This document shows, piece by piece, positions 14,842-22,624 of a DNA stretch of 64,000 nt; within the stretch, counting starts at the first letter, position 1, and each line of letters starts with the position of its first letter. This DNA comes from Corallococcus macrosporus DSM 14697 (GTDB taxonomy: Bacteria > Myxococcota > Myxococcia > Myxococcales > Myxococcaceae): contig NZ_CP022203.1 of the NCBI RefSeq assembly GCF_002305895.1, forward strand, positions 5,310,501 through 5,374,500, in the 5' to 3' direction. The position numbers and the translations under genes are program-made. Below the pieces are notes generated by a model. That model had not been told where the DNA came from and did not search any database. It saw only the letters and a list, made by a program, of their open reading frames with translations.

Positions 14842-15194
14842 ACCCCGCCGGTCCCGAGTCGAACCCCCGGCCTACAGGGGAGCCCGCGGGCGCGCATGGG
14901 TGAAGCCCGCGCCGCTGTCGGCCAGCCCACGGCCCCGGGCTGGCATGTACGCCCGCTCACAGGCGCGCCCGCGCCCGTGATGGGGGCTGTACACAGCCAT
15001 GCGACCAGACGCAGTGCTCGCCTCGCGCCGTCATGAACGCCACGGACGAGGGAGCCGAGGAGCCTCGTCATCACGGCGGGCCCAGATGCCCGGCCCTGGC
15101 GGAGGGCGTCGCGCCGGGCCCGCCCCTGCCCGCCTGGCCGCGACCCGCGCCCGCATGCCTTGTAGTGCCCTGGACACCACCCCAGCTTGAGGCC
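14842..15194. other. Divergent intergenic region between actA and the MscS-type gene
   Basis: 353 bp that must carry the promoter of the respiratory operon and of the channel gene. It contains a short dyad GGCTGT-AC-ACAGCC at 14985-14998. No clear -35/-10 pair stands out in the GC-rich sequence. An in-frame upstream extension of the channel gene to 15033 exists but has no ribosome site and codes for a Pro/Ala/Arg-rich leader, so it was not used. Confidence 0.5.
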
Positions 15195-16163
15195 ATGGAC
15201 CTGTTCGGCGTGCGCATCCTCGGCCTCAACGCCGAGACCTTGCACAAGGTGGCGCTGTCGCTCGTCGTGGTCGTGGCGGTGCTGGGCGTGCGCGCGCTGC
15301 TGACCGTGGTGGTGGGACTGGGCACGGGCGTGTCCCGCCGCACCATCTGGACGCGCAAGGGCATCCGGCTCGCCTTCGGGGCGGTGGGGACGCTGCTGCT
15401 GCTCTCCATCTGGTTCGACAACCCCAACCGCCTGGCCACCTTCCTGGGCCTGCTGGCCGGAGGGCTCGCCTTCGCCTCGCAGAACGCGGTGCTGTCCGTG
15501 GCGGGCTACTTCGTCATCGTCTTCGGCAAGACGTTCGACCTGGGCGACCGCATCCAGATTGGAGACGTCCGCGGAGACGTGCTGGACATCGGCCTGCTCA
15601 AGACGACGGTGATGGAGATGGGGGTGCCGGCGCTGCTGATGCCCGACCCGCACCACTGGGTGGCCTCGCGCCAGTACACCGGGCGCGTCGTCACCATCAC
15701 CAACGCGGAGGTCTTCAAGCAGCCAACGTACAACTACACGCGCAGCTTCAACTTCCTCTGGGAGGAGCTGCGGCTGCCCCTGCGGTACCAGGCCGACCTC
15801 CCGCGCGCCGAGGCCATCGTCCTGGCGGCCGTGCGCGAGGCCACCGCCGGCATCATCGAGGAGGGCCACCGCGACCTGGCGCAACTGCGCGAGCGCTTCC
15901 TCATCCACGCGAGCGAGCTGGAGCCCCGCGTCTACCTGCGCCTCACGGACAACTGGGTGGAGCTGAGCGCGCGGTTCCTCGTGAAGACCTATGGCGTGCG
16001 CGAGGTGAAGGACGCCATCTCCCGGCGCGTGCTCGCGCGCTTCCGCGAGGAGGGCATCGACCTGGCGTCCTCCACCCTGGAGGTGGTGCGGTTGCCTCGC
16101 GTCGAGCTGCGCGCCGCGGAGGACGCCGGTCCCGCCGACGCCTCCCTGCCCGCGGACTCCTGA
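15195..16163 (+). CDS. MscS-family mechanosensitive channel protein
   Basis: A 322-residue protein with three N-terminal hydrophobic helices (about residues 17-38, 55-72 and 80-108). The third is the Gly/Ala-rich pore helix of MscS (TFLGLLAGGLAFASQNAVLS), followed by the beta-domain motif FGKTFDLGDRIQIGDVRGDV and a mixed C-terminal domain. It should open under membrane tension and release solutes. The ATG at 15195 is just behind GAGG and directly precedes the first helix. An insert around GVPALLMPDPHHWVASRQYTG lengthens the beta domain relative to E. coli MscS. It ends 7 bp from the convergent TPP enzyme remnant. Confidence 0.9.
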   Translation: MDLFGVRILGLNAETLHKVALSLVVVVAVLGVRALLTVVVGLGTGVSRRTIWTRKGIRLAFGAVGTLLLLSIWFDNPNRLATFLGLLAGGLAFASQNAVLSVAGYFVIVFGKTFDLGDRIQIGDVRGDVLDIGLLKTTVMEMGVPALLMPDPHHWVASRQYTGRVVTITNAEVFKQPTYNYTRSFNFLWEELRLPLRYQADLPRAEAIVLAAVREATAGIIEEGHRDLAQLRERFLIHASELEPRVYLRLTDNWVELSARFLVKTYGVREVKDAISRRVLARFREEGIDLASSTLEVVRLPRVELRAAEDAGPADASLPADS

Positions 16164-16170
16164 CGCGCCC

Positions 16171-17724
16171 CTACGCCTTGTGCGGCAGGAGCTTGTCCAC
16201 CATGCCGCGGATGGACTGCCTGACGATGCCCGCCGTGTCCTCGTCCCCGGACAGGAGGGCCGAGGCGAAGTGACGGGCCTGCTCGAAGGTGATGTGCGGC
16301 GACAGCGGCGGCACGTTCGGGTCCGTGTAGGCCTCCAGCACCACGGGCCGGTTCGCGGAGAGCGCCTCGTCCCAGGCGCGGGCCAGTTGCTCCGGGCGGT
16401 CCACGCGCACGCCGCGCAGCCCCAGCGACTCCGCGTAGCGCGCATAGGGGAAGTCCGGCAGCGTCTGTGTGGCGGGCGTCTTCGGGTCTCCGGCCATGAC
16501 CCGCTGCTCCCACGTCACCTGGTTGAGGTCGCGGTTGTTGAGCACCAGCACGACGAAGCGTGGGTCCTTCCACTCCTTCCAGTACTTCGCCACCGTGATG
16601 AGCTCCGCGTTACCGTTCATCTGCATCGCGCCGTCCCCCACCATGGCCAGCACCGGCCTGTGTGGGAACGCGAACTTCGCCCCGATGGCGTACGGCATCC
16701 CGCAGCCCATGGTGGCGAGGTTGCCGGACAGAGACGCCATCATCCCCTTGCGAATCTTCACGTCCCGGGCGAACCAGTTCGTCCCCGAGCCCGAGTCCGC
16801 CGTCAGGATGACGCCGTCGGGCAGCCTGGGGCTCAGCTCCCAGAAGACGCGCTGGGGGTTGATGGGGTCGGCCGGGTTCATCGCCTGCGCCTCCAGCAGC
16901 TTCCACCACTGGCGGATGCCCTTCTCCAACTGCTCGCGCCAGCTCCGGTCCTGCTTGCGCTGGAGCAGGGGCAGCAGCGCGCGCAGCGTCTCCTTGCTGT
17001 CACCCGAGAGCGCCACCTCCATGGGGTAGCGGATGGCGAGCATGCGCCCGTCGAGGTCAATCTGCACGCCGCGCGCCTGGCCCTCGGGGGGGAGGAACTC
17101 CGCGTAGGGGAAGCTGGTGCCCACCATCAACAAGGTGTCGCAGCCCATCATCATGTCCCAGGAGGGCCGGGTCCCCAGCAAGCCGATGGCGCCCGTCACG
17201 AAGGGCAGCGCGTCCGGCAGCGCCGCCTTGCCCAGCAGCGCCTTGGCCACGCCAGCGCCCAGCAGGTCCGCCACCTCCACCACCTCGTCGGCGGCGTTCA
17301 TCGCGCCCGCGCCGATGAGGATGGACACCTTCTTGCCCGCGTTGAGCACGTCCGCGGCGCGGCGCAGGTCCTTCTCCTGGGGGATGACGTGCGGCGGGCT
17401 GAAGTCCACGCTGGAGTGGACGGTGCCGTGCTTCCGCGGCGGCGGCTGGTACGCCAGCTCCTGCACATCATTGGGGATGATGACGCACGTCACCGAGCGC
17501 TGGTGCAGGGCGATGCGCACCGCCCGGTCAATGGCGTGACGGACGGCGGAGGGCTTCGTCACCATGGTGACGTACTCGCTGGCCACGGCCTTGAAGAGCG
17601 TGGTGAGGTCCACCTCCTGCTGGTAGTGGCCGCCCAGGGCCGAGCGCGCCTGCTGGCCGACGATGGCCACCACGGGCTGGTGGTCCAGCTTGGCGTCATA
17701 GAGCCCGTTGAGCGTGCGCGTCAG
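16171..17724 (-). pseudogene. Thiamine-pyrophosphate enzyme (pyruvate oxidase/acetolactate synthase-like), 5' end missing
   Basis: 517 codons of a TPP-dependent enzyme of the POX/ALS family. The readable part begins in the middle of the N-terminal PYR domain at LNGLYDAKLDHQPVVAIVGQ, then has the central domain and the C-terminal TPP-binding domain with GDGAMQMNGNAEL and LNN. Relatives carry about 75-85 more residues before this point, including the catalytic Glu and the TSGPG motif. Here homology stops abruptly at the stop codon of the upstream enolase-type gene, which is in another frame. No plausible start codon or ribosome site exists at the junction. A deletion joining the two genes is the simplest reading; an assembly error is the alternative. 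A short product from an internal GTG would lack the active-site Glu. Confidence 0.8.
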
Positions 17725-18839
17725 GCCAGGGGACCGACCGCGTAGCGCGCCGCGTCCGCGCGCTTCAACTCCAGGCCCAGGCCCGGCCGCGTCAGGTCCG
17801 GAGCCAGCGCCCCCTGCCGGACAGGCGCCACGCCGTCGAAGAGCATCCGCTCCAGCCGGACATGGTCGTGAAAGTACTCGAGGTGCACCAATCGCCGCGC
17901 CGCGCACGCCACATGGACATGGAGCGCGGGGGCGCAATGGGCCGACAGCGGCACGCCGAACGCGTCACACAGCGCGTCCGCCTGGAGGAACCCGCTGATG
18001 CCCAGGCAGCGGGTGGCGTCCGCCTGGAGCACGTCCACCGCGCCCGCCTCCAGCATGCGCCGGAAATAGAGGCCACTGTCTCCATACTCTCCCGCGGCCA
18101 CGGCCATGCCGGCGGGGACGCGGGCGCGCAGGCGGTGGAGCCCGTCCAGGTCATCGCTGGAGACGGGCTCCTCGAACCAGGAGACGCCATGGGCCGCGAA
18201 GCGCTCCGCGAGCAACAGGGCCTGCGCCACCGTGTACGCGCCGTTGCCATCCACGAAGAGCGCCGCGCGCGGCCCGATGGCGCGCCGCGCGGCCTCCACC
18301 CGGGCCGGGTCCTCATCGGGGCGGCTGCCCACCTTCATCTTCACCCGGGGAATCCCCTGCTCCACCCAGCCGGCGAGCTGGGCCTGAAGCCGCGCGATGG
18401 GATACGAGGTGAAGCCCCCGCTGCCGTAGACAGGGGCCGCGGACCGCGCCGCGCCCAGCAGCCGCACCAGCGGCACCTCCAGCAGGCGCGCCTTGGTGTC
18501 CCACAGCGCCACGTCCACCGCGGAGAGCGCCATGGCCACCAGCCCCGGCCGCCCCTTGTTGCGGACCTGTCCCAGCAACGTGCGCATCCGCGCCGGGACG
18601 TCCATCACGTCGTGTCCCTGGAGCCCGCGGGCGAGCGAGCGACGGATGAGGTCCGCCGCCGAGGCGTCGGCATACGTGTAGCCGAGCCCGCGCGTGCCGC
18701 CCGCCGTCAGCTCCACCACCACGAGCGTCGTGCTGTTCCATTCGGCGGTGCCGTCCGCCTCCGGCGCATCCGTTGGTATCTCATACGCCTGGACGTCGCA
18801 GCGCTCGATGGGAACCGCCTCGCTGTGCTTCAGGACCAT
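17721..18839 (-). CDS. Enolase-superfamily enzyme (mandelate racemase/muconate lactonizing type)
   Basis: A 372-residue enzyme with the N-terminal capping domain and (beta/alpha)7 barrel of the superfamily. Active-site features are visible: the KMK lysine pair, metal ligands in LFVDGN (Asp), WFEEP (Glu) and AAGE (Glu), and His in SAHCAPALHVH. It abstracts a proton alpha to a carboxylate; the substrate (probably an acid sugar or related compound) is unknown. The ATG at 18839 is used because GGAGGAG precedes it directly; an ATG 15 bp upstream has no such site. Its 3' end looks complete (RPGLGLELKRADAARYAV) and abuts the truncated TPP enzyme gene. Confidence 0.88.
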   Translation of the reverse strand: MVLKHSEAVPIERCDVQAYEIPTDAPEADGTAEWNSTTLVVVELTAGGTRGLGYTYADASAADLIRRSLARGLQGHDVMDVPARMRTLLGQVRNKGRPGLVAMALSAVDVALWDTKARLLEVPLVRLLGAARSAAPVYGSGGFTSYPIARLQAQLAGWVEQGIPRVKMKVGSRPDEDPARVEAARRAIGPRAALFVDGNGAYTVAQALLLAERFAAHGVSWFEEPVSSDDLDGLHRLRARVPAGMAVAAGEYGDSGLYFRRMLEAGAVDVLQADATRCLGISGFLQADALCDAFGVPLSAHCAPALHVHVACAARRLVHLEYFHDHVRLERMLFDGVAPVRQGALAPDLTRPGLGLELKRADAARYAVGPLA

Positions 18840-18904
18840 GGCCTCTCCTCCCATGTCTGTCGCCCGCGCCAGCCAGCGCGCGCACGCGTGGGCAGCTTTC
18901 CTCC

Positions 18905-19414
18905 ATGAAGCCTATTGACTGGCACGGCCTCTGGGTTCCGGACCTCCACCCACTGGAGGTCATCATCCGCGTCTCGCTGGTGTTCCTCTTCGTGCAGTTC
19001 GTCCTGCGGCTGGTGGGACGCAAGGAGCTGAGCCGCTACGCCAGCTTCGACCTGGCCCTGCTCTTCCTCCTCACGGTCTGCATGCGGATGACCATCGTGG
19101 CCAACGACGACAGCCTCACCACGGGCTTCATCGCGCTGGCCACGATGGGCGCGTGGGACAGGCTCTTCTCCTGGCTCGCCTACCGCGACCACCGCGCGGC
19201 CCGGCTGCTGGAAGGCCGGTCGCTGGAGCTGATTCGCGCAGGCCGCCTGGTGCACGCCAACCTGCGCAGGTCGCGCATCTCCCAGAAGGAGCTCCTCAGC
19301 CAACTGCGCACGCACGGCCGCGACGACCTGGGCGCCGTCCACGCGGCGTTCCTCGAACCGAGCGGCCAGGTGACCTTCCTCTTCCGCGACGTGGAGCGTG
19401 CCCCGCTCAGGTGA
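18905..19414 (+). CDS. Second DUF421 / YetF-type membrane protein
   Basis: A 169-residue relative of the protein at 846. It has a membrane part with helices around residues 16-36, 45-62 and 66-84 and motifs FVLRLVGRKELSRYASFDLA and LLFLLTVCMRMTIV, followed by a small soluble domain with SRISQKELLSQLRTHG. The family's function is unknown. It is divergent from the enolase-type gene (65-bp gap) and its stop overlaps the convergent holin-like gene by 8 nt. The ATG at 18905 lacks a strong Shine-Dalgarno sequence, but it is the first start before the conserved region. Confidence 0.83.
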   Translation: MKPIDWHGLWVPDLHPLEVIIRVSLVFLFVQFVLRLVGRKELSRYASFDLALLFLLTVCMRMTIVANDDSLTTGFIALATMGAWDRLFSWLAYRDHRAARLLEGRSLELIRAGRLVHANLRRSRISQKELLSQLRTHGRDDLGAVHAAFLEPSGQVTFLFRDVERAPLR

Positions 19415-19793
19415 GCTGCTGGTCCAACTTGTCCAGATCTCGCCGCACCTGTGAGCCCACGGCGGCCAGCGGGTGCCGGGGGAGGCACCGCACCCCCACG
19501 AGCGCCAGACCGGCCGCGCCCCCCACCAGCCCCAGTCCCAACAAGGCCGCGCGCCCCGGATGCGCCAGCAGCACCTTGGCCAGGGAGAGCGTCAGGGCGG
19601 AGACCCCGCCGAGCGCCAACAGTCCCGCTCCGCCCCAAAACACAGCACCAGAGGAGATATCGCGCGCCTCGGCGTGCAGCGCCCGCCGTGTCCGGTCCGC
19701 CTCCCCTCGGAGCAGCTTCCGGCCGACGTCCAACGTCTTGTCCAGCAGCCCACCCGGTGCCTGCTCGCCCTGGTTCCCACCCGCCTGCGCCAT
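19407..19793 (-). CDS. Small membrane protein, YqjE / phage-holin-like
   Basis: A 128-residue protein: a polar N-terminus with a helix (LLDKTLDVGRKLLRGEADRT), two hydrophobic segments (about residues 50-72 and 78-98) and a charged tail. This is the layout of the holin-superfamily-III/YqjE group of small membrane proteins, which in chromosomal context are usually not lysis proteins. The ATG at 19793 is behind AAGGAG; longer frames upstream are Pro/Cys-rich and lack a site. The family call is tentative and rests on topology. Confidence 0.65.
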   Translation of the reverse strand: MAQAGGNQGEQAPGGLLDKTLDVGRKLLRGEADRTRRALHAEARDISSGAVFWGGAGLLALGGVSALTLSLAKVLLAHPGRAALLGLGLVGGAAGLALVGVRCLPRHPLAAVGSQVRRDLDKLDQQLT

Positions 19794-19991
19794 GTCCACT
19801 CCTTTCGCCCCAGCCTGCGAGGGGCACCCGCGGCCACGCACGAAAGCTATTGGCTCCCGGTGCGAAAATGCACCAGACGGGCAAACGGGCACGCGTGAGC
19901 GAGAGGCCTTTCAACGCCGAACGTGTGGCACCCTCGCCCCAGGCAAAGCAATTCTGGCCACTGCGAATAACAGCCCCCGTAGAATCGCTCA

Positions 19992-20621
19992 ATGACCTCC
20001 TACAACGTCCACAAGCTCTTCGAAGAGATCGAGCGCGTCGTGAAGTCGGACCTCTCCGTCGCGGCAGCGCTCCTGCACATCATCCAGTTCTGCGAGGCGG
20101 CACGCCCTCACCCTGACTGGGCTGCACTGCGAACACTGGAGGTGGAAGGCGATCTCCGGCAGCTCCAGCAATGGCTCGAAACCCTCATCCGGGAAACGCC
20201 GCCGCCAGCGGCCATCACCGGCCTGTGGTTCGGTCTCTTCAACCCCGTCGTGCAGGAGCGCGTGACAGCGGACATCCATCTCATCGGGGCGCCCTATGAC
20301 GCCACCCACCACGATTGGCTGTTCCGGGAGCGGTGGGGCTCGGACACGCCCGACTCGGGCTCCAGCGTCCTCGACGCCATCTACCAGATTGCCTATGGAC
20401 ACGAAGACGGACTCGGGAACGATGCCGAATACCCCTTGGCCCTGACGTACGCCGCGCTCGCGATCCGTCATCTCGCACAGCGCATGGGGCCGACGATCCT
20501 CGGAGAGGCCGCTCAGCGAGTCCTCCTCGTCGGCTTTGATTCCGGCGACTTCTTGTGCATCGGCGCGGTCCGGCAGGAGGGACTCGTCTTCTCTCGCAGC
20601 ACCGAGGTGATGGCCTCGTGA
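19992..20621 (+). CDS. Hypothetical protein in the toxin/immunity block
   Basis: A 209-residue soluble protein with no signal or membrane segment. It begins with a helical segment (LFEEIERVVKSDLSVAAALLH) and has a mixed alpha/beta C-terminal half (WFGLFNPV, LFRERWGSD). No family was recognised. Its base composition is visibly less GC-rich than the surrounding core genes. It converges on the immunity gene, with a hairpin between the stops. Small acidic orphans of this kind beside polymorphic toxins are often further immunity proteins, but nothing in the sequence proves it here. Confidence 0.65.
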   Translation: MTSYNVHKLFEEIERVVKSDLSVAAALLHIIQFCEAARPHPDWAALRTLEVEGDLRQLQQWLETLIRETPPPAAITGLWFGLFNPVVQERVTADIHLIGAPYDATHHDWLFRERWGSDTPDSGSSVLDAIYQIAYGHEDGLGNDAEYPLALTYAALAIRHLAQRMGPTILGEAAQRVLLVGFDSGDFLCIGAVRQEGLVFSRSTEVMAS

Positions 20622-20624
20622 GCG

Positions 20625-20645
20625 CCGACCTTCAATGAAGGTCGG
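20625..20645. terminator. Hairpin between two convergent genes
   Basis: CCGACCTTC, loop AAT, GAAGGTCGG: a perfect 9-bp stem lying exactly between the stop codons of the hypothetical and immunity genes. No T-run follows on either strand, but the position fits a bidirectional terminator. Confidence 0.45.
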
Positions 20646-21219
20646 GAGCCTCCGTCACGCGCTCGAATGACACGCCCAGGTTCCCGACGGCTTCGAGGGC
20701 GTTCTTGACGTCCTCCGACACAATGAACGCAGTCTTGAACTTCTTCAGCCGGAAGACCTGGGCGCCATCGGTTCTCAACGGGTCGATTCTAAGTCCGTAG
20801 ATCCAGTTGTATTCGCCTGGGTAATCAGGGGACGGATCGTCCTCATCATAGTGATGCACCTCCTGGCACCGTGCCTCGTCAATGGCATCAACCACCTTGG
20901 TTACATTGACGACGAAGTACCGCTCGGGCGCTCCCTCCACCGTCACTGGAAACAGTTGGACGTCACCCGAAGCCAATGTCCTGAAGACATCGGCAATGGC
21001 TTCGTTGACGATGGGGGCAGCCTCAATCACAGATAAGTCAAACGATCGCCTGGTCCCAGGATGTGCGATTCGTGCTGCGAGGGGGCCCAAGTCAGGAAGG
21101 ACGCGACCATCCGCGAACATCCAAGGCTCGTCAAACGCCTCACCAGAATCCCGTGTCGGCGTCTCAATCAGCCACCGTGGCACATCCCCCAGCTCCACCG
21201 AGTAATAATGACGCTCCAA
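20632..21219 (-). CDS. Imm11-family (DUF1629-like) immunity protein
   Basis: A 195-residue soluble protein whose layout (RHYYSVELGDVPRWLIETP near the start, YNWIYGLRIDPLRTDGAQVF and the VSEDVKNALEAVGNLGVSFE end) matches my memory of Imm11/DUF1629 proteins, which neutralise nuclease toxins and are common in myxobacteria. It starts with TTG, one base after the toxin stop, behind GGTGGAG inside the toxin's last codons. The two genes are therefore translationally coupled, as expected for an antidote made with its toxin. It probably acts in the cytoplasm by binding the AHH nuclease domain. The family call is from pattern memory. Confidence 0.75.
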   Translation of the reverse strand: MERHYYSVELGDVPRWLIETPTRDSGEAFDEPWMFADGRVLPDLGPLAARIAHPGTRRSFDLSVIEAAPIVNEAIADVFRTLASGDVQLFPVTVEGAPERYFVVNVTKVVDAIDEARCQEVHHYDEDDPSPDYPGEYNWIYGLRIDPLRTDGAQVFRLKKFKTAFIVSEDVKNALEAVGNLGVSFERVTEAPDLH

Positions 21220-21220
21220 C

Positions 21221-22522
21221 CTATTTCTCCACCTTCACAATGAAGCTCCGAAGCGGATTTCCCGGCGTCATAAGCTCATTCGCTATCTTCGCAAGCTCCT
21301 TCATCAGACTGGCCCGGCAGGTCTCCGTCGTTCGGCAGCGCGCAACAGAGCGTTCAAGGCGCCGCATCACTGCTCGGTGATACAGTTCAGGGTGAGGCCC
21401 CGCGTGTCCCTTGAGCCGCACCTTGTTGGCAGCGTCTTCGAGCGTCATCCCGGCCTTCGCGAATAGCTTCTGACACTGAGGAGTCCAAGGACCGCCAGTA
21501 GTGTCGGAGATGGTGTTCCTGGTCGTGCAGATGTGGTGAGTCGGGCCTTCGTCATCGCCGGGGATCCGACCGTCCCCGTACATCGCCAGGGCCGCGGCGG
21601 CGCCAGGCGCCAGCGCGACGTTCAGCACTCCGGCGGCGGGCATCGCGATGGAGGTCACGCCCCCATTCAGCGCCGCTCCAAGCGGGAATCCCGCCTCGGC
21701 CTGCGCTCGAAGCGCGGCTTGAGCAAAGCCCGGGAGCTTCGGCCCCTGGGCCGCCATCGCGCTCCTTCCGCCCAGCGCCGCCATGACGACGAGCACCAGG
21801 ACTCGTGTGCCGTTCGTCCCCAGCACCCGCCCGAACCGTTGCCCGATGGCCTGTAGCTCGCTGACGCTCATCGCCATCCCCGCATCATCCCACAACCGGA
21901 CGAAGCCGCGTCCTATCTCCCAGACGGGCACCACTCCGAGATAGGCCACCATCGCCGCCGTCAGCGCCACCGCGACGACCTTGGTGACGGGCTCGGGCAG
22001 CGCCATGGTGAGCAGCAGCGTCAGCGCTGCAGACGTCACCAGGGCCTTGAGCGCGACCGGATTCAGCACCTTGCCGACCTCGGCCTCGACGCTCTCCCAT
22101 ACGGTGTCCAACGCGAAGGACAGCGCCATCAACGTCCGGTCCTTCCGGGAGAACGTCAGCCCCGTTCCGCCCACCAGCGTCAAGCAGTCCTCCGCCTCGG
22201 GGCAGATGCGCGCGTACAAAGTCTCCAGCGAGCTGCCCGAGCCTGAATCGACGATGCCCGCAGCGGACGCCAGCAGCGATTTGGAGCGAGCCCACCCGCG
22301 CGCGTCCACCTCTTCAACCTCCTGGAATGCCATGTCCATCCGCATGGCCAGGATGAGGCGCGTGAGGGCGGACTTGAACGCGTCCTCACTCACCTCCACC
22401 GGCTCAACCTCCACCGACGCGTGGACGACCCGCCGCCCATTCCCGACATCGATATGGACCACGCGCGTGCTCGCGCAGCCCGCCGACAGCAGCAACGGCA
22501 AGATGACTGCAACCCATTTCAT
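21221..22522 (-). CDS. SitA-like lipoprotein polymorphic toxin with C-terminal AHH nuclease domain
   Basis: A 433-residue lipoprotein toxin. A lipoprotein signal ends in LLSAGC (Cys16). A long delivery-type region of about 300 residues follows, with a central hydrophobic stretch (ALVTSAALTLLLTMALPEPV, VALTAAMVAYLGV) and a segment VSELQAIGQRFGRVLGTNG. The last 106 residues are an AHH-type nuclease: THHICTTRN (His329, His330), GGPWTPQC, GHAGPHPELYH. This architecture matches the SitA toxins passed between myxobacterial cells by TraA/B outer-membrane exchange. The ATG at 22522 follows GGAGGG. The coupled Imm11-type gene is the likely antidote. Assignment to a specific SitA subfamily is from memory. 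Confidence 0.82.
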   Translation of the reverse strand: MKWVAVILPLLLSAGCASTRVVHIDVGNGRRVVHASVEVEPVEVSEDAFKSALTRLILAMRMDMAFQEVEEVDARGWARSKSLLASAAGIVDSGSGSSLETLYARICPEAEDCLTLVGGTGLTFSRKDRTLMALSFALDTVWESVEAEVGKVLNPVALKALVTSAALTLLLTMALPEPVTKVVAVALTAAMVAYLGVVPVWEIGRGFVRLWDDAGMAMSVSELQAIGQRFGRVLGTNGTRVLVLVVMAALGGRSAMAAQGPKLPGFAQAALRAQAEAGFPLGAALNGGVTSIAMPAAGVLNVALAPGAAAALAMYGDGRIPGDDEGPTHHICTTRNTISDTTGGPWTPQCQKLFAKAGMTLEDAANKVRLKGHAGPHPELYHRAVMRRLERSVARCRTTETCRASLMKELAKIANELMTPGNPLRSFIVKVEK

Positions 22523-22624
22523 GGAACCCTCCGCAGCGTCCTCCCTGGAGCCAGGGGGCACGGCATCCTGACTTTGGGCTCTGACAACTCCAGCGCGCTT
22601 GCGCGACAGCAGCCTACCTCACGG

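Follow-up and report, generated by a model that had tools for sequence, protein, structure and literature searches.

A 3.7-kb deletion has very probably made a pseudogene of a TPP-dependent enzyme gene in Myxococcus macrosporus DSM 14697

In the stretch of 64,000 nucleotides analysed here (the window; Corallococcus macrosporus DSM 14697, hereafter M. macrosporus DSM 14697, contig NZ_CP022203.1), the frame of a TPP-dependent enzyme begins without its N-terminal part, practically at the stop codon of an enolase-type gene. This arrangement could mean that the enzyme is dead, that a new partial protein is made, or that the assembly is at fault. The original prediction left the three readings open, and the evidence collected here favours the dead enzyme. 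The TPP gene very probably became a pseudogene through a real deletion of about 3.7 kb, which took place fairly recently and is one of several losses of the same gene unit.

The open frame 17724-16171(-) reads LTRTLNGLYDAKLDHQ..., and the sequence encoded by the TPP gene starts within it, from 17712, with LNGLYDAKLDHQ.... By its matches, the frame is a PRK08273-type TPP enzyme of the pyruvate-oxidase/acetolactate-synthase superfamily. The NCBIfam model PRK08273, which has 598 positions, matched it from position 83 to position 594; the score of 897.9 bits passes the equivalog cut-off of 724 bits and excludes a chance homology over 512 residues, and model positions 1-82 were left unmatched. The central (PF00205, 86.6 bits) and C-terminal (PF02775, 110.5 bits) TPP domains are complete and the GDG motif is retained. 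From Pfam TPP_enzyme_N (PF02776), the last 41 positions alone were found (77-117 of 119), at 23.7 bits and below the cut-off of 26.8, and a complete PYR TPP-binding domain with its catalytic Glu is absent from the remnant. Among solved structures, the best match is the pyruvate dehydrogenase (cytochrome) PoxB of E. coli (PDB 3ey9; E 4e-67, query 4-491 on PoxB 81-551), the N-terminal domain of which is complete, whereas the remnant aligns only from PoxB residue 81. The intact orthologue in the related genome G007 has 594 amino acids, with RHEE at 48-51, TSGPG at 73-77 and LNGLYD from residue 82, and therefore 81 residues are missing from the frame in the window. Members of the PRK08273 family (NCBIfam NF006129) from the same genus share 77-93% identity with the remnant over residues 82-594, but the remnant lacks their residues 1-81, including the catalytic Glu within RHEE and the TSGPG motif. 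What is left is 513 codons plus the stop, and the gene's own start codon and promoter region are gone. Thus, full homology to this superfamily without the Glu/TSGPG part, and a loss of about 80 codons, had both been predicted correctly. Of the predicted bounds the end at 16171 stands, and the beginning is moved from 17724 to 17712. The features of the locus are listed in Table 1.

Table 1. Coordinates of the features around the junction, numbered from the first letter of the window
Feature	Position	Strand	Remark
MscS-type channel gene	15033..16163	+	converges on the TPP remnant
TPP-dependent enzyme remnant, PRK08273 family	16171..17712	-	residues 82-594 of the intact protein
Deletion junction	17712..17713	.	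about 1 bp (G) of microhomology; comparison with G007
Former 3' flank of the enolase-type gene, 8 bases, fused to the TPP frame	17713..17720	-	
Enolase-superfamily gene, complete, 377 aa	17721..18854	-	mandelate racemase/muconate lactonizing type, sugar-acid-dehydratase-like

The intact arrangement was found in the two closest relatives among the genomes compared, G007 and G019, of which the TPP enzymes are 92-93% and the enolase-type proteins 88-90% identical to those of the window. The order there is enolase-type(+), FAD/Fe-S oxidoreductase(-), TPP(+), with the enolase-type and TPP genes on one strand and the two points joined in the window lying 3.7 kb apart. An opposite-strand gene of 1067 amino acids fills this space, and the TPP start and the first 81 codons then follow. 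Its product has FAD-binding, FAD-oxidase, Fe-S and cysteine-rich domains and is most like the D-2-hydroxyglutarate dehydrogenase YdiJ and GlcD, well below their equivalog cut-offs. The same three-gene order with longer spacing occurs in G002, G008 and G011, and therefore the deleted state in the window is derived. Among 104 TPP-enzyme loci examined, from myxobacteria to Chloroflexi and Bacteroidetes and some of them from the same genomes, all 104 keep the N-terminal 82 residues, so that no homologue starting at LNGLY, as a truncation common to the relatives would predict, was encountered. A search of 26 further genomes of the genus did not find the joined sequence either. An ancestral order of enolase-type gene followed by TPP gene was also rejected, since distant bacteria mostly have TPP and then enolase, and the Myxococcus relatives have the oxidoreductase gene between the two.

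At the junction, the TGA of the enolase-type gene (17723-17721) is overlapped by the TPP frame, which runs in another register. That this upstream gene is complete and in a different frame, and that the TPP homology starts within a few bases of its stop codon, agrees with the original prediction; the gap to the TPP sequence is 8 bp. These 8 bases align to the 3' flank of the enolase-type gene of G007 if a gap of 2 bases is allowed, and the switch into TPP sequence takes place at 17713/17712, with one shared G. Because the flank is short and diverged, the left end of the deletion is uncertain by a few bases. Relative to G007, the part lost is L124 5543-9251, about 3,709 bp. The predicted sharp deletion junction is borne out by the distance between its two ends in the closest relatives. 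The predicted loss of the TPP start was correct as far as it went, and the deletion was found to contain, in addition, the whole oxidoreductase gene together with the TPP promoter/upstream region and codons 1-81. The MscS-type gene on the other side of the remnant is a boundary of the local block and lies outside the event.

The locus is best explained as follows. A deletion in the lineage of M. macrosporus DSM 14697 fused the DNA behind the enolase-type gene to TPP codon 82, and the comparison shows that the same deletion took out the oxidoreductase gene, the upstream region of the TPP gene, its start codon and its first 81 codons. No repeat was found at the junction ends, leaving nothing to explain homologous recombination, which was ruled out, or a collapse by the assembler, and the near-blunt junction points to illegitimate end joining instead of repeat recombination. 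A search of the genome for a Ku gene found none, in a test in which one of 14 control genomes gave a match; Ku-based joining was set aside, and another end-joining route is needed because of this result. The copies of the window and of G007 occupy different positions on the chromosome, and for this reason the deletion may have accompanied a relocation of the locus. Enzymes of this superfamily bind TPP at a subunit interface, with the PYR domain on one side and the PP domain of a second subunit on the other, and the glutamate that activates the cofactor belongs to the PYR domain. Since most of the PYR domain is gone, including the catalytic Glu and the cofactor-contacting loops, the product is predicted to be unable to bind or activate TPP, and the gene is most readily read as a pseudogene. 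If transcripts of the enolase-type gene read through into the remnant and a protein is made at all, no activity is expected of it. The TPP enzyme was almost certainly killed by the deletion.

The lost parts were also looked for in the rest of the genome. The N-terminal 90 residues of the TPP enzyme gave only paralogues that were 38% identical or matches that were short and insignificant, and the 1067-aa oxidoreductase gave only weak paralogues of about 30% identity or less over partial length, so that a move of either piece to another place was rejected. The truncation is derived and the lost part is present nowhere else in the genome, as is found for a deletion pseudogene. The sole other relative of the remnant in this genome is a TPP-enzyme homologue with 28% identity, while each of G001, G006, G007, G019 and G023 has a paralogue, 77-79% identical, at another place. 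As far as the assembled sequence tells, M. macrosporus DSM 14697 is without an intact PRK08273-family member.

Selection on the remnant was analysed with a codon model for six taxa. The omega of the window branch was 0.047, against 0.045 elsewhere (2dL 0.02), with an upper bound of about 0.09; values of 0.10 or more were rejected at the 5% level. If the deletion left the remnant neutral, no more than about 5% of the window branch can be younger than the event. A parsimony count gave a different picture, with 26:21 amino-acid to silent changes on the window branch vs 12:32 on the sister branch (Fisher p 0.010), and this contrast between branches was absent from the enolase-type gene (p 0.80). 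In addition, the window branch carries two changes at positions that are the same in at least 95% of 98 homologues, whereas the five closest orthologues have none. The likelihood result is more reliable than the cruder parsimony count, and therefore these data do not demonstrate a relaxed selection; they are read most simply as the trace of a deletion that is probably recent. A retained open frame with a low omega agrees with a recent event, though a fragment still in use could look the same.

The last point bears directly on the proposal that the remnant still yields a useful partial protein, which might serve for example as a structural partner or regulator. Ribosomes would re-initiate once they had passed the enolase-type gene, or would begin at an internal start. 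In favour of such a use, the frame follows immediately behind an intact gene of the same strand, it overlaps the TGA of that gene, and its 513 codons remain open under low omega. We nevertheless regard it as very unlikely, because the PYR domain is mostly lost, the junction offers no ATG, GTG or TTG, no relative uses the shortened form, and the branch carries both the two changes at conserved residues and more amino-acid changes than its sister in the parsimony count. An assembly fault, by which 3.7 kb went missing from the assembly although the strain itself retains the complete unit, would also leave the retained frame intact and looking constrained. This possibility is equally slight. The genome (CP022203, 8,973,512 bp) was assembled from PacBio reads with HGAP into one contig at 83-fold coverage (PMC5629066), the deletion ends have no repeat to collapse, no other part of the assembly contains the missing pieces, and the same unit has been lost with different ends in other genomes. 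M. fulvus HW-1 is named in the genome paper as the nearest strain with a sequence. A variant of the deletion reading places the event in laboratory or culture-collection passage and not in the natural lineage. The restriction of the junction to one genome and the nearly unchanged remnant are in keeping with it, but the losses in other Myxococcus genomes show a natural erosion of the unit, and nothing specific favours passage, so that we consider this origin improbable.

These other losses were found in G023, G006 and G001, in which different deletions of the three-gene unit lie at the site that is intact in G007 and G019, between flanks of 94-98% identity. In G023 (L149 2271-6990), the enolase-type and oxidoreductase genes are kept and roughly the first 20 TPP codons are joined to the TPP end. 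Only a 150-bp stretch of the oxidoreductase gene and roughly the last 58 TPP codons are left in G006 (L151 6290-6620), and G001 (L156 4092-4210) retains only about the last 13 TPP codons. The cases differ in their right-hand ends, and the copy in the window occupies another position on the chromosome than these three; the comparison therefore calls for a minimum of two separate losses, with three or four being probable. The left limit is nearly the same in G006 and G001, and these two deletions could share part of their history. The window locus resembles an ordinary bacterial pseudogene made by illegitimate deletion: the ends are sharp, the microhomology amounts to about 1 bp, and a whole neighbour gene has been lost along with the 5' end and the upstream region. 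Nothing differs in kind, and the event is ordinary gene decay; what is unusual is that the same gene unit is hit repeatedly, in several relatives. It seems to us rather unlikely that within the Myxococcus clade the unit has become redundant or a cost, so that selection acts repeatedly against it and the enolase-type gene with its TPP remnant is an intermediate kept for a changed role.

Some further differences were observed around the locus. In G006 (L152 9104-9678), a 3' fragment of the MscS-type gene stands directly beside the counterpart of window 20650-21236, and about 4.6 kb with the TPP remnant and the enolase-type gene is absent there (compare window 15970-20650), for which reason this place looks variable in the genomes compared. 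The DUF421/YetF-type gene beside the enolase-type gene (18773-19414 in the window) is longer than its G007 counterpart (L124 3940-4326), which is missing about 185 bp in the middle of the gene. The window gene at 21221-22561 has counterparts at G007:C3:750817-752118 and G019:C5:451753-453051, both with one in-frame TAG inside the matched stretch, and these are possibly a decayed copy.

The association of the three genes was counted at those 70 TPP loci of the collection scan in which the sequence extends for 1.3 kb or more on the downstream side. The enolase-type gene was present at 34 of them, in 25 cases directly downstream on the same strand, and both partners, the enolase-type gene and the oxidoreductase gene, were present at 20. 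These gene neighbourhoods support a functional link among the TPP enzyme, the enolase-type protein and the oxidoreductase. They come from many distant phyla (L044-L123, e.g. L055, L063, L072, L081, L085 and L113). A literature search on PRK08273 found no paper on it and no description of such a pathway. We infer a pathway with dehydration of a sugar acid or related acid, oxidation of a 2-hydroxy acid and decarboxylation of a 2-oxo acid.

For M. macrosporus DSM 14697, these results mean that the "TPP-requiring protein" readable in the genome is almost surely no working enzyme. Together, the relatives show different stages in the loss of one accessory metabolic unit, and a pathway is suggested by the finding of its three genes together in different phyla. 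It is this recurrent loss and the conserved three-gene unit that give the locus its wider interest.
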